DNA of 64,000 nucleotides from Streptomyces sp. NBS 14/10 (lineage in GTDB: Bacteria; Actinomycetota; Actinomycetes; Streptomycetales; Streptomycetaceae): contig NZ_NCSM01000015.1 of NCBI RefSeq assembly GCF_002224125.1, positions 124,001-188,000 of the forward strand. The letters run 5' to 3'. Position 1 is the stretch's first letter. Every line of letters begins with the position of its first letter. Made by a program: the position numbers and the translations under genes. Positions 1-13,150 of the stretch are shown here, piece by piece. A model generated the notes under the pieces. That model was not told the origin of the DNA and made no database searches. It saw only the letters and a program-made list of their open reading frames with translations.

Positions 1-2406
1 GGCGGTGTGGGACTTGTTGAACGCGTAGCCGGAGAACGGGAGCATGACGTCCCACAGGGCCTTGATGGCTTCCTCACTGTATCCATTGCCTCGCATGCCG
101 GAGTGGAACTTGTCCCACTCCGCGGCCAGCACCTCCGGTTTCTTCTTGCCCATCGCACGGCGCAGCAGATCGGCGCCGCCGAGGGTGTACCCGGCCAGTT
201 CCCGGGCGATGGCCATGATCTGCTCCTGGTAGACGAGCAGATGGAAGGTGTTGCCGAGGATCGGCTCCAGAGCGTCGCGCAGCTCGGGGTGGATCGGGGT
301 GATCTCCTGGCGGCCGGTTTTGCGGTACGCGTAGTTGGTGTGCGCGTTGGCCGCCATGGGGCCGGGCCGGTAGAGGGCGTTGACCGCGGCGATGTCCTCG
401 AACCGGGTGGGTTCCATCTGCTTCAGCAGGACGCGCATGCCGCCGCCGTCGAGCTGGAAGACACCGAAGGTGTTGCCCTCGGCCAGCAGCCGGTATGTCC
501 TGGCGTCGTCCAGAGGGATCACGACGGTGGACGGGTCGCCGTCCAGGGGATCCACGGTGGCCAGGCTGATGCCCCGGTTCTCGCGGATGTTCTCGATGGC
601 CTGGTCGATGACCCCCAGGTTCCGCAGCCCCAGGAAGTCCATTTTGATCAGGCCCATGGCTTCGCAGGACGGGTAGTCGAAGCCGGTGATCTTCACACCG
701 TCCGAGGCACGCATATGCAGCGGAATGCGGTCGGTGAGCTTCGTTTTGGAGAGGATCACCGCCGCGGCGTGTACTCCGGTGCCGCGGGTGAGGCCTTCCA
801 CCCCGCGGGCGGTGTCGATGACCCGCTTCACATCCTGTTCGTTGCCGTACATCTGCCGGATCTCGCCGGCCTCGCCGTACCGCTCGTGGGAGGAGTCGAA
901 GATGGCGGCCAGCGGGGCGGACTTGCCGTTCTGGTCCGGCGGGAGCGCCTTGGTGATCCGCTCGCCGTGGGCGTAGGGGTAGCCGAGGATGCGTGAGGAG
1001 TCCTTGATCGCGTTCTTGGCCTTGATCTTGCCGAACGTGTTCACCATGGCGGTGTACTCCTCGCCGTACTTCTCGGTGACGTAGCGGACCATCCGGTCGC
1101 GCTGACGGTCGTCGAAGTCGAGGTCGACATCCGGCGGGTTGATGCGCTCGGGGTTCAGAAAGCGTTCGAACAGCAGGCCGTGTTCCAGGGGGCACAGCTC
1201 GGTGATGCGGGTGGCGTAGGCAACGATCGAGCCGGTGCACGACCCCCGGCCCGGACCGAGCGGGATCTTGTTCTCCCGGGCGTGGCGGCAGATGTCCGCC
1301 ACGACGAGGAAGTAGGAGCTGAAGCCCATGGGGCCGATCACCGACATCTCGGTCTCGAAGCGATCCAGGATGTGCGGGGGGACCGGGTCTCCGTAGCGCA
1401 TCGCCAGGCCCTTGAGGACTTCCTTGCGCAGCCACGACTCCTGGGTCTCGCCTTCGGGCACACCCGGGAACCGCGGCATTTCGTCGACGTAGTCGAAGAC
1501 CTCGTCGTAGGACTCGACGCCCTCGGCGATCAGCAGGGTGTTGTCGCAGGCTTCCGGAAGCTCCGAGAACAGGTTGCGCATCTCAGCGGCCGTCTTGAGG
1601 TAGTAACCGGAGCCGTTGAAACGGAAGCGGCCCGGGTCGTCCTTGTTCTTGCCGACACCGATGCACAGCAGACTGTCGTGAGCGTCTGCCTGGTCCTCGG
1701 TGACGTAGTGCGCGTCATTGGTGGCCAGGAGCGGAATGTTCAGTTCCTTGGCCAGACGCAGCAGGCCCTCACGGACCTCACGCTCGATGTCCAGGCCATG
1801 GTCCATCAGCTCCAGGAAGTAGTTCTCGCGGCCGAAGATCTCCTGGTAGGCCGCGGCAACGGCCTTCGCCTCGGCGTACTGGTTCAGCCGCAGGCGGGTC
1901 TGGATCTCGCCGGACGGGCAGCCGGTGGTGGCGATGAGGCCGTCCGGCCGTGCGGCGATCAACTCCCGGTCCATGCGCGGCTTTCCGGCAGGGAACTGAC
2001 CTTCATAGCTGGCCTGCGTGCTGAGCCAGAACAGGTTCCGCAGGCCCTGGCTGTTCCGCGCCCACATGGTCATATGAGTGAAGCGGCCGCCACCGGAAAC
2101 ATCTTTCGATCCCTCGCCGTCCGCGCTTGTGGCGCGACGGCCTCCCGGTCCCCAGAACTCCTGCTTCCGGACGAACCGAGAGGAAGGCGCCACATACGCC
2201 TCGATGCCGATGATCGGCCTGATCCCCTCGTAGCCCTTCGCGACCTGCGCGAACTCATAGGCACCGAACATGTTGCCGTGGTCGCTCATCGCGATCGCGG
2301 GCATCCCCTGCCGGGCCACCTCGCTGAACATCGGCTTCAGCTTCTGCGCGCCGTCCAGCATCGAGTATTCGGTGTGATTGTGCAGGTGCACGAAGGAATC
2401 CGGCAC
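1..2406 (-). CDS. dnaE: DNA polymerase III alpha subunit, DnaE-like paralogue (3' end outside window)
   Basis: Replicative C-family polymerase catalytic subunit; the first 802 codons are present. The GTG start at 2406 is chosen because a strong AGGAGG lies 10 nt upstream and the protein then opens with the PHP-domain signature VHLHNHTEYSMLDG. The metal-binding PDVDLDF motif is near residue 424, GPGRGS near 385 and FNKSH near 795, so the catalytic core looks intact. A 14-residue Gly/Ser/Asp-rich insert follows the first 70 residues. From memory, the housekeeping streptomycete DnaE1 opens with a different PHP motif (HVHTQYSLLDG), so I take this for a second copy. A LysR gene is divergent. Whether it is a damage-tolerance polymerase, a spare or an inhibitor-resistant copy cannot be decided here. 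Confidence 0.9.
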   Translation of the reverse strand, partial: MPDSFVHLHNHTEYSMLDGAQKLKPMFSEVARQGMPAIAMSDHGNMFGAYEFAQVAKGYEGIRPIIGIEAYVAPSSRFVRKQEFWGPGGRRATSADGEGSKDVSGGGRFTHMTMWARNSQGLRNLFWLSTQASYEGQFPAGKPRMDRELIAARPDGLIATTGCPSGEIQTRLRLNQYAEAKAVAAAYQEIFGRENYFLELMDHGLDIEREVREGLLRLAKELNIPLLATNDAHYVTEDQADAHDSLLCIGVGKNKDDPGRFRFNGSGYYLKTAAEMRNLFSELPEACDNTLLIAEGVESYDEVFDYVDEMPRFPGVPEGETQESWLRKEVLKGLAMRYGDPVPPHILDRFETEMSVIGPMGFSSYFLVVADICRHARENKIPLGPGRGSCTGSIVAYATRITELCPLEHGLLFERFLNPERINPPDVDLDFDDRQRDRMVRYVTEKYGEEYTAMVNTFGKIKAKNAIKDSSRILGYPYAHGERITKALPPDQNGKSAPLAAIFDSSHERYGEAGEIRQMYGNEQDVKRVIDTARGVEGLTRGTGVHAAAVILSKTKLTDRIPLHMRASDGVKITGFDYPSCEAMGLIKMDFLGLRNLGVIDQAIENIRENRGISLATVDPLDGDPSTVVIPLDDARTYRLLAEGNTFGVFQLDGGGMRVLLKQMEPTRFEDIAAVNALYRPGPMAANAHTNYAYRKTGRQEITPIHPELRDALEPILGNTFHLLVYQEQIMAIARELAGYTLGGADLLRRAMGKKKPEVLAAEWDKFHSGMRGNGYSEEAIKALWDVMLPFSGYAFNKSHTA

Positions 2407-2489
2407 GTGTGGGTCGCCTCCTGCCACGCCGCTTGCCAAACCACAGGTTGATCAGAGACATCAAAGCGAGCGTGGTGTACTGGAATCAA

Positions 2490-11034: not shown

Positions 11035-11116
11035 GCGGTGCTCTCCTGGGCAACAGAGGATAGTGGTGGGGTTTCGGGTCGGGCGTCCCGAGCGTGCGGG
11101 AGGCCAGTGTCCAGGG

Positions 11117-13150
11117 TCAGATGTCGAGGAAGCGGACGTCCTTGGCGTTGCGCTGGATGAAGTGGCGGCGGGCTTCGACGTCCTCGCCCATCAGGACGGA
11201 GAAGAGGTCGTCGGCGACGGCTGCGTCATCGAGGGTGACCTGGCCCAGGACCCGGTGGTCGGGGTCCATGGTGGTGACGCGCAGTTCCTCGGCGTTCATC
11301 TCGCCCAGGCCCTTGAAGCGCTGGATGGAGTCGTCCTTGATCCGGCGGCCGTCCTGCCGGCCCCGTTCCAGCAGCATGTTGCGTTCGCGGTCGGAGTAGG
11401 CGTATTCGACGTGGTCCCGGCTCCACTTGATCTTGTACAGCGGGGGGCGGGAGAGGTAGACGTGGCCCTGCTCGATCAGCGGGCGCATGAAGCGGAACAG
11501 GAAGGTCAGCAGCAGGGTGTTGATGTGCTGGCCGTCGACGTCGGCGTCCGCCATCAGGATGATCTTGTGGTAGCGGAGCTTGGCGATGTCGAAGTCCTCG
11601 TGCACGCCCGTGCCGAACGCGGAGATGATCGCCTGGATCTCCTGGTTGTGCAGGATTTTGTCGATCCGGGCCTTCTCGACGTTGAGGATCTTGCCGCGGA
11701 TCGGGAGGATCGCCTGGTACTGCGGGTTGCGGCCGGATTTGGCCGAACCGCCGGCGGAGTCTCCTTCCACGATGAAGATCTCCGACATCGCCGGGTCGTT
11801 CGACTGACAGTCGGACAGCTTGCCCGGCAGCGCCGCCGTTTCCAGCAGGCCCTTGCGGCGGGTCAGGTCGCGCGCCTTGCGGGCCGCGACCCGGGCCGTG
11901 GCCGCCTGCATGGCCTTGCGCACGATGTCCGCGACCTCGTTCGGGTTACGGTCGAACCAGTCGGTCAGATGCTCGTGGACGATCTTCTGCACGAAGGTGC
12001 GCGCATCGGTGTTGCCGAGTTTGGTCTTGGTCTGGCCCTCGAACTGCGGTTCGCCGAGCTTGACCGAGATGATCGCGGTCAGGCCCTCGCGGATGTCCTC
12101 GCCGGAGAGGTTGGCGTCCTTTTCCCGCAGCAGTTTCTTCTCCCGCGCGTAGCGGTTGACCACGGTGGTCAGTGCCGTGCGGAAGCCCTCCTCGTGGGTG
12201 CCGCCCTCATGGGTGTGGATGGCGTTGGCGTAGGAGTAGACGCTGTCGGTGTACTGGCCGTTCCACTGCAGGGCTACCTCGGCCGACAGCAGCCGTTCCG
12301 TGTCCTCGGCGGCGATGGTGATGACCGAGGGATGGACCGGTTCGCCCTTGCGGGCGTTGAGGTAGGCGACGAAGTCGGTGATGCCGCCGTCGTAGCGGTA
12401 GGAGACCGTCCTCGCTGCCGGGTCCGAGTCGGCTTCGTCGGCCGCGGCCGTCGCGCGCGCGGAGGGCCGTTCGTCGGTGAGGGTCAGAGTGAGCCCGCGG
12501 TTGAGGAAGGCCATCTCCTGGAAACGCCTGGACAGCGTCTCGAAGGAGTACTCGGTGGTCTCGAAGATGCCGCCGTCTGCCCAGAACGTCAGGGAGGTGC
12601 CCGTACGGGAGGTGGCCTCGTGGCGGGCCAGTGGGGCGGTGGGAGCGCCGTCCTTGTAGTCCTGCGTCCACCGGTGGCCGTCGGTCCAGATCTCCGCCGA
12701 CAGCCTGGTCGACAGCGCGTTGACCACCGACAGGCCCACACCGTGCAGACCGCCGGAGACCGCGTACCCGCCGCCCCCGAACTTCCCGCCCGCGTGCAGC
12801 ACGGTCAGCACCACCTCGACGGCCGGCCGCTTCTCCACCGGGTGCGTCCCCACCGGGATGCCGCGGCCGTTGTCGACCACCCGTACCCCGCCGTCGGCCA
12901 GAATCGTCACGTCGATCCGGTCGGCCACCCCCGCGAGCGCCTCGTCCACGGAGTTGTCCACGAGCTCCTGCACCAGGTGGTGCAGCCCCCGTTCGCCCGT
13001 GGAGCCGATGTACATGCCTGGCCGCTTGCGCACCGCGTCCAGGCCGTCCAGAACAGTGATCGCGTTGGCGTCATACGACGCCGTCCCGGCATGGCCGGGC
13101 TGCCGGGTTTCGGGGGTACCGCTGGCGGTGCGAGTGTCGTAAGTGGTCAC
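11117..13150 (-). CDS. gyrB: DNA gyrase subunit B-like protein, second copy
   Basis: A 677-residue GyrB. The GTG start at 13150 is chosen because GAGAG lies 7 nt upstream and the protein then has normal length ([10 protein letters not shown] and so on); the frame is open 31 codons further up. Motifs are [14 protein letters not shown] (Glu62, Asn66), [11 protein letters not shown] (Asp93), [27 protein letters not shown] and [12 protein letters not shown], and the protein ends [11 protein letters not shown]. The offset to E. coli numbering is a constant +20 through the ATPase pocket, so Arg136 corresponds to Thr156. The usual recF and gyrA neighbours are absent, so this is probably not the oriC-linked gene. 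It is followed by parY. A resistant duplicate of a drug target is the leading idea. Confidence 0.92.

Follow-up and report, generated by a model that had tools for sequence, protein, structure and literature searches.

The window analysed here, a 64,000-nucleotide stretch of the soil bacterium Streptomyces sp. NBS 14/10 (C35:124001-188000, in a genome of 12.1 Mb and 127 contigs), carries near its left end a second replicative-type DNA polymerase III alpha gene, dnaE-II, and an extra gyrB-parE pair, gyrB2 and parE2. An earlier note on this DNA had placed dnaE-, gyrB- and parE-like genes within 13 kb, all on the minus strand. Gene calling on the 213-kb contig C35, with a codon model trained on that contig (152 calls), confirmed this arrangement and added four genes between dnaE and parE that the note did not have, so that the order from left to right is dnaE(-), LysR(+), FdhF/YdeP(-), LysR(+), glutamate dehydrogenase(+), parE-like(-) and gyrB-like(-) (Table 1). 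dnaE-II extends 1.2 kb past the left edge of the window, and parE2 lies directly downstream of gyrB2 on the same strand, after an 82-bp spacer. The genome groups with Streptomyces by the nearest relatives of its DnaE, GyrB and ParE proteins. Since an identical ParE2 protein is listed from a 12,057,308-bp contig, the locus is chromosomal now.

Table 1. Features of the dnaE-II and gyrB2-parE2 region, in window coordinates.
Feature	Position	Strand	Remarks
dnaE-II, second replicative-type DNA polymerase III alpha	1..2406	-	3' part left of window, to C35:122810; 1198 amino acids, complete
LysR-type regulator, divergent from dnaE-II	2545..3504	+	conserved partner in near DnaE-II subclade
FdhF/YdeP-family molybdopterin oxidoreductase	3585..5903	-	bystander; collinear in S. 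milbemycinicus
second LysR-type regulator	6064..7017	+	bystander; last gene collinear with S. milbemycinicus
glutamate dehydrogenase	7247..8593	+	bystander; second genomic copy adjoining parE2, other at C81 (81% DNA identity)
parE2 (parY^R-like), extra topoisomerase IV subunit B	8923..11034	-	Ala-Tyr at positions aligned with E. coli GyrB 94-95
gyrB2 (gyrB^R), extra gyrase subunit B	11117..13150	-	677 amino acids; GTG start at 13150
conserved gyrB2 cassette leader	13151..13510	-	homology end points compared across loci
12-bp inverted repeat, 2-nt loop (hairpin or palindrome)	13180..13205	-	ends 29 nt before gyrB2 start codon
whole cassette: leader + gyrB2 + parE2, about 4.6 kb	8922..13510	-	conserved block in other loci

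A search of the genome itself returned four GyrB/ParE-type genes, two of them at this locus, and two GyrA/ParC genes, neither of which is duplicated. Housekeeping gyrB lies at C2:175629 and is followed by gyrA at C2:177750; housekeeping parE lies at C34:82948, 13 kb from parC at C34:97721. DnaE-type genes number three: dnaE-II, a DnaE1 on C107 and a DnaE2-like copy on C91. GyrB2 and ParE2 are each 82% identical to their housekeeping counterparts, while DnaE-II is 58% identical to DnaE1 over its in-window part (56% over the whole protein) and 32% identical to the DnaE2-like copy. dnaE-II, gyrB2 and parE2 are extra copies, without extra A subunits. The dnaE, gyrB and parE found here are thus not the only ones in the genome; had they been, that would, by the earlier note, have spoken against duplicated drug targets.

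The gyrB2-parE2 cassette and its leader

Among the best 120 of 7996 scored database relatives of GyrB2, S. niveus proteins carrying the NCBI name 'novobiocin-resistant' stand at 92-93% identity and GyrB copies of S. roseochromogenus, S. bingchenggensis and S. milbemycinicus at 96%; even copies from Allostreptomyces and Embleya reach 93%. In a maximum-likelihood tree of 55 rows, a 100/99 branch groups 33 rows that include GyrB2, S. niveus and S. roseochromogenus, and the opposite side holds 20 housekeeping-type rows, likewise a 100/99 group.

We then compared the ATPase domains of 91 R-type and 54 housekeeping-type GyrBs. Among the R-type proteins, E. coli V43 is replaced by Leu (67) or Ile (24), H55 by Val (89) or Ala (2), V120 by Leu in all 91 and V167 by Leu (89) or Ile (2), and position 58 is Arg throughout. 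All 54 housekeeping-type proteins keep Val at 43, 120 and 167, but the tree placed just 20 of them. For the other 34, V120 and V167 were part of the residue pattern used for assignment, which makes the count circular at those two sites. The fair count there is therefore that of the tree-placed rows, 33 of 33 against 0 of 20; all three pocket valines are Leu or Ile in these 33 R-type rows and Val in the 20 housekeeping rows. V43, V120 and V167, together with A47, V71 and I78, make up the lipophilic pocket in which the dichloro-methylpyrrole of a GyrB inhibitor sits (PMC9884090). The GyrBs of G090 (S. halobius, an inferred name) and of an S. atratus plasmid fall on the housekeeping side of the tree, yet carry Ile43, Met120 and Leu167, which looks like convergence at the level of these residues.

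R136T was considered as a resistance mark and rejected. GyrB2 has Thr and the housekeeping GyrB of the same genome has Arg, but Thr also occurs in 12 of 15 other Streptomyces housekeeping GyrBs (those of S. milbemycinicus and 14 DnaE-II genomes, not a random draw). D81G was discarded on the same grounds. By clade and pocket changes, the assignment of GyrB2 to the gyrB^R type is nevertheless well supported by sequence. The duplicated resistant gyrB genes of S. niveus and S. roseochromogenes serve as positive controls in a tool paper (PMC7795190).

The ParE comparison covered 127 rows, made up of the 120 listed database proteins (of 8000 scored) and the loci. At the positions aligned with E. coli GyrB 94-95, 103 rows have Val-Met, 23 (22 distinct) have Ala-Tyr and one, from S. 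milbemycinicus NRRL 5739, has Ala-Asn. The Ala-Tyr group holds ParE2 and protein P0251 of the clorobiocin producer S. roseochromogenus, which are 93% identical; S. halobius and the S. atratus plasmid keep Val-Met in their ParEs. Judging by its position after gyrB2 and by the Ala-Tyr that it has in common with the clorobiocin producer's protein, ParE2 is parY^R-like. Going by the title of Schmutz et al. 2003, gyrB^R and parY^R reportedly confer resistance. According to a review, gyrB^R of the coumermycin cluster is followed immediately by parY^R, and the clorobiocin cluster has both genes (PMC6804068). The resemblance to the gyrB-then-parY layout of clorobiocin and coumermycin producers, to which the earlier note had pointed, was thus borne out by gene order, clade and substitutions.

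The cassette is mobile, to judge from sequence comparison, because S. milbemycinicus NRRL 5739 has it at another site without shared flanks: its gyrB2-parE2 lies on a different contig, as a 4.6-kb match at 89% with unmatched flanks. G308 and G058 carry a lone gyrB2 at 93%, with the match stopping upstream at window 13504-13510, and about 67 bp of parE2 are left in G308. A survey that scored 324 of 392 Streptomyces genomes, with one candidate per genome and hence counts that are lower bounds, found the gyrB-parE pair in at least four (the genome studied here, G090, G031 and G154, the parE2 of the last two being identified by reading their loci) and lone copies in at least five (G308, G058, G036, G120 and G259). 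No aminocoumarin genes were recognised by eye in the long-range neighbourhoods of G090, G031, G154, G308 and G058. The cassette edges carry no terminal repeats beyond one imperfect 17-bp direct pair, and no collinear copies were found in 40 drawn relatives among the matches listed. Ratios of nonsynonymous to synonymous substitution rates (dN/dS) against S. milbemycinicus were 0.16 for GyrB2, 0.25 for ParE2 and 0.12 for DnaE-II. Separately, G187 holds short GyrB/ParE-like N-terminal pieces (C102:109-591 and C63:207602-208144), 56-60% identical to ParE2, in open frames of 240-286 amino acids.

Upstream of gyrB2, a leader of about 355 bp belongs to the conserved block. Its homology ends at 13504-13510 in three other loci and at 13472 in a fourth, and earlier, at 13206-13313, in more distant copies. 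The inverted repeat in this leader forms an uninterrupted stem at the same site in 7 of 11 extra gyrB copies, with 12 pairs in the window, S. milbemycinicus, G308 and G058, 13 in G036, and 11 in S. halobius and S. atratus; G031, G154, G120 and G259 have an interrupted version, and the best unbroken stem of these leaders falls elsewhere. The hairpin is thus present in both GyrB lineages, which appear to have acquired the pocket change independently. In thirteen housekeeping gyrB leaders, which contain just a left-arm-like sequence, the best stems reach 5-8 Watson-Crick pairs (5-9 if G-T is allowed) in scattered places.

Single RNA folds, computed for eight sequences, gave z-scores of -2.5 for the window, -2.1 for G036, -3.5 for G259 and -3.7 for S. 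halobius; the values for G031 (-1.1) and G120 (-0.7) were not better than those of two housekeeping leaders (-0.6 and -1.2). A hand-trimmed alignment of seven distinct sequences from 9 of the 11 leaders (G031 and G154 were omitted for an internal loop), whose trimming favours structure, pairs in 97.4% of its cells compared with 35-70% in slid versions. Its covariation score was matched by 5 of 500 shuffles and its double-change cells by 9 of 500; just one pair has double changes, which 358 of 500 shuffles match, and there is no enrichment of pair types (258 of 500). With all 11 leaders as input, RNAalifold returned 11 pairs, two of them with double changes, and a covariation term of -0.52. An Rfam search of window 12800-13800 gave nothing above threshold and two sub-threshold matches. 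With moderate support from these comparisons, the leader element could function as RNA switch, cruciform or operator.

DnaE-II and its plasmid relatives

A locus search with DnaE-II recovered 80 loci, 47 of them (L025-L071) at 66-97% and 33 at 55-56%, which is the level of housekeeping DnaE1. A DnaE-II copy (79-91%) was found in 16 of 198 other Streptomyces genomes, 199 being surveyed with the present one included. Plasmid records matching DnaE-II number 157, of which 56 reach at least 60% identity, whereas the control with the genome's own DnaE1 matched 177 plasmid records and just 5 at that level; the collection includes a large 'plasmid' record of 11.85 Mb. C-family polymerases are described as rare on plasmids, about two-thirds of those being DnaE2, in a 2013 survey (PMC3919608). 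A literature search on dnaE of Streptomyces linear plasmids turned up no title on the DnaE-II clade, and we do not claim the clade to be unpublished.

In a 32-row DnaE tree, in which the outgroup DnaE2 branch is very long, 21 of 21 DnaE-II proteins, chromosomal and plasmid, form one 100/100 clade apart from DnaE1. Because Actinomadura copies nest among Streptomyces ones, DnaE-II has moved between orders. The PHP ligands, the catalytic aspartates and a QxxLF clamp motif are intact in all 21. The nargenicin contacts Q638, R667 and H787, which sensitive and insensitive polymerases are reported to have in common (PMC8922275), are also conserved in 21 of 21. The residue aligned to position 860 of Mycobacterium tuberculosis is Gly in that species and in dnaE-II, and the site equivalent to S. 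aureus S765 is not altered. Conserved contacts do not prove sensitivity, since both kinds of polymerase have them. The suggestion that this DnaE is a copied drug target, with nargenicin as the example, found no positive evidence, because the clade is common on plasmids and the nargenicin contacts are kept.

An adjoining LysR gene (at least 60% identity) accompanies dnaE-II in 14 of the 47 loci and, where DnaE identity is at least 86%, in 11 of 11. In the 199-genome survey, for which 1.5-kb flanks were read, LysR was present in 4 of 6 loci above the same threshold. Other DnaE-II branches have a DUF6300 gene directly downstream, overlapping the dnaE stop on several plasmids (L188, L189 and L190); DUF6300 is possibly a small partner of the plasmid polymerase.

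One island or two modules

In S. milbemycinicus the block DnaE-LysR-FdhF-LysR is collinear with the window, and the 5.3 kb read beyond it hold no topoisomerase gene. An extra gyrB-parE pair is clear in 1 of the 16 other DnaE-II genomes, clearly absent from 12 and unclear in 3. Across the 199 genomes, the pair occurs in at least four (the present one, G000, with G090, G031 and G154), DnaE-II in 17, and both in two, including the window itself; these co-occurrence numbers are too small to show a link between DnaE-II and gyrB-parE, and the window was chosen for having both. A common origin of dnaE and gyrB-parE was nonetheless rejected on synteny and co-occurrence, because S. milbemycinicus separates the modules and 12 of 16 DnaE-II genomes are without the pair. 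Of the target-duplication resistance island proposed in the earlier note, the gyrB-parE part stands, with its resistance gene order, clade and pocket changes; dnaE is a separable module.

The surroundings were read over the whole contig, with a Pfam scan of 86 of the 152 called genes and motif reading of 4; the remaining 62 are mostly short. Left of dnaE lie a piece of a flavin adenine dinucleotide (FAD) enzyme, ArsR-like regulators (by eye), a SulP transporter, a short-chain dehydrogenase, an alkaline phosphatase and others. A group at C35:81.7-98.6 kb (81661-98622; L218 and L012) comprises a thioesterase, a nonribosomal peptide synthetase (NRPS), an AMP-binding/ketoreductase/carrier protein, a major facilitator superfamily transporter, an AMP-binding enzyme and a DIT1_PvcA protein, which is isocyanide-synthase-like. 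The NRPS, of 2214 amino acids at C35:82.5-89.1 kb, has condensation, AMP-binding, FkbM methyltransferase, carrier and thioesterase domains. Further left follow mixed metabolism and regulators and then, at the left end of C35, a type I polyketide synthase read from motifs (C35:2-44 kb, 2133-44001; L021, L022 and L019), with giant proteins of 3606 and 9915 amino acids and seven ketosynthase motifs, about 79 kb from the dnaE-II end. A biosynthetic cluster had been anticipated to the left, and one of NRPS/isocyanide type is present, but it ends 24 kb from the dnaE-II end and is not of aminocoumarin make-up. No glycosyltransferase or other aminocoumarin set was recognised among the scanned genes of C35, and PF11468 (the CloQ/NovQ-type prenyltransferase family) had no match in this genome, nor in any control genome.

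To the right of gyrB2 lie a beta-helix protein, a periplasmic-binding protein, a ClpP pair, a sigma factor and then mixed metabolism. The two tandem ClpP genes (window 18297-19539) were considered as a further duplicated target; the genome has five ClpP genes, which is presumably the usual Streptomyces set. A large helicase with four helicase-associated (HA) domains, of a kind associated with Streptomyces replicon ends, lies at C35:74817-77378 (L013:10817-13378). Homologues of the two genes after it adjoin gyrB2 in G058.

We considered whether dnaE, gyrB and parE might have been assembled together against one compound or a cocktail of DnaE and gyrase inhibitors, made by the strain or its neighbours. 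All three extra copies lie within 13 kb, S. halobius (G090) has both modules about 67 kb apart, on three S. atratus plasmids about 200 kb separate dnaE-II from a ParE2-like gene (the gyrB-parE pair being seen on one), and the NRPS/isocyanide-type cluster ends 24 kb to the left. Such an assembly is unlikely, however, given that the cassette of S. milbemycinicus lies away from its DnaE block, that one of the 16 other DnaE-II genomes clearly has the pair and 12 clearly do not, that unrelated metabolic genes separate the NRPS cluster from dnaE, and that the nargenicin contact residues of DnaE-II are unchanged.

It is also improbable that the locus is the remnant of an integrated megaplasmid which kept DnaE, GyrB and ParE for its own upkeep, with drug resistance incidental. 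The frequency of DnaE-II on plasmids, the S. atratus plasmids with DnaE-II and a ParE2-like gene, and the four-HA-domain helicase at C35:74.8-77.4 kb would fit such an origin. By contrast, gyrB2-parE2 has the pocket changes of the resistance clade, the two modules are separable, and identical ParE2 sits on a contig of chromosomal size; moreover, ParE at 80% or more turned up on four plasmid records, three of them from S. atratus and the other absent from the 40 listed DnaE records. A third possibility, that these are spare housekeeping paralogues serving development or stress (in mycelial topology control, for example) and not resistance, would agree with the purifying selection and with the orphan gyrB2 of several Streptomyces, five of which have no biosynthetic genes recognised by eye beside them, but this is very improbable in view of the different sites in related species, the 93% identity even to Allostreptomyces and Embleya copies, and the pocket changes common to named resistance proteins.

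Interpretation and comparison with known systems

The sequence evidence points to two separate acquisitions lying side by side, an orphan gyrB^R-parY^R aminocoumarin-resistance cassette and a plasmid-type dnaE-II, a reading to which we assign a probability of about 0.74. Besides the partly circular residue assignment described above, several observations weigh against it. E. coli R136, the classic coumarin site, does not discriminate in these Streptomyces because Thr is also common among their housekeeping GyrBs, and ParE2 retains the R136-equivalent Arg. In G058 a periplasmic-binding-protein gene (87%) lies 4.5 kb from gyrB2, with homologues of two further C35 genes in between, and its homologue here lies 1.8 kb from gyrB2; as this gene is near gyrB2 in both, part of the flank may have travelled with the cassette. 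The partner parE of S. milbemycinicus NRRL 5739 (L191 12020-14140) is another allele, with a dS of 0.47 compared with 0.11 for gyrB2, and is therefore a sign of partner exchange within the cassette. As for dnaE-II, the plasmid records repeat strains of the same species, so that the 56 are not independent, DnaE-II is found on chromosomes too, and LysR is not within the 1.5-kb flank in 2 of the 6 closest loci of the genome survey.

On the reading of two acquisitions, we infer that GyrB2 and ParE2 would make this strain resistant by supplying drug-insensitive ATPase subunits. These would pair with housekeeping GyrA and ParC, since no gyrA or parC is duplicated. The drug pocket overlaps the ATP site, and it would be disrupted by the bulkier Leu or Ile in place of the three valines in GyrB and by the change from Val-Met to Ala-Tyr in ParE. 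Expression of the cassette is probably governed by the leader, whose hairpin closely precedes the start codon. dnaE-II encodes a complete second replicative polymerase that has kept its proofreading and clamp-binding motifs and belongs to a clade frequent on large plasmids of actinobacteria. The gene probably arrived with a plasmid or by exchange of chromosome arms, and its divergent LysR partner probably regulates it. We also entertain, as a doubtful extension, that the leader hairpin or palindromic operator senses gyrase inhibition through loss of supercoiling and switches on the spare subunits, that a LysR-gated DnaE-II swaps the replicase on demand, and that the arm would thus hold inducible replacements for gyrase, topoisomerase IV and polymerase III.

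These results indicate that gyrB^R-parY^R can be a free-standing, scattered mobile cassette in Streptomyces and not solely a part of aminocoumarin clusters. Searches of genomes for duplicated targets (ARTS-like tools) will therefore come across it where no corresponding cluster adjoins. Resistant and housekeeping copies may be told apart by two simple, testable markers, the three replaced pocket valines and the hairpin of the leader; R136 does not serve this purpose in this genus. DnaE-II, for its part, represents a large, little-described replicative clade common on plasmids and raises the question of why big plasmids bring their own replicase.

Among known systems, the gyrB^R-parY^R genes of the clorobiocin (S. 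roseochromogenes) and coumermycin (S. rishiriensis) clusters have the same gyrB-then-parE order on one strand. The likeness to S. roseochromogenus extends to clade, pocket substitutions and identity (96% for GyrB2 and 93% for ParE2), and that to the coumermycin genes rests on their description. The cassette differs from both clusters in standing alone with its own leader, with no aminocoumarin genes recognised among the scanned genes of C35. gyrB^R of S. niveus (S. sphaeroides) resembles GyrB2 in clade, in identity (92-93%) and in Leu at 43, 120 and 167; the novobiocin cluster is reported to be without parY^R (PMC6804068), whereas parE2 is present here. Nocardia sp. CS682 has a DnaE homologue, NarR/NgnU, beside its nargenicin cluster (PMC8922275). 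dnaE-II likewise encodes an extra replicative-type DnaE, but belongs to a plasmid-common clade, with no nargenicin-type cluster known to adjoin it. With actinobacterial DnaE1, DnaE-II has the PHP, polymerase and finger domains and motifs in common, and it differs from that protein (56-58%) and from the DnaE2/ImuC-type copy (32%) in forming a separate, fully supported clade of its own.

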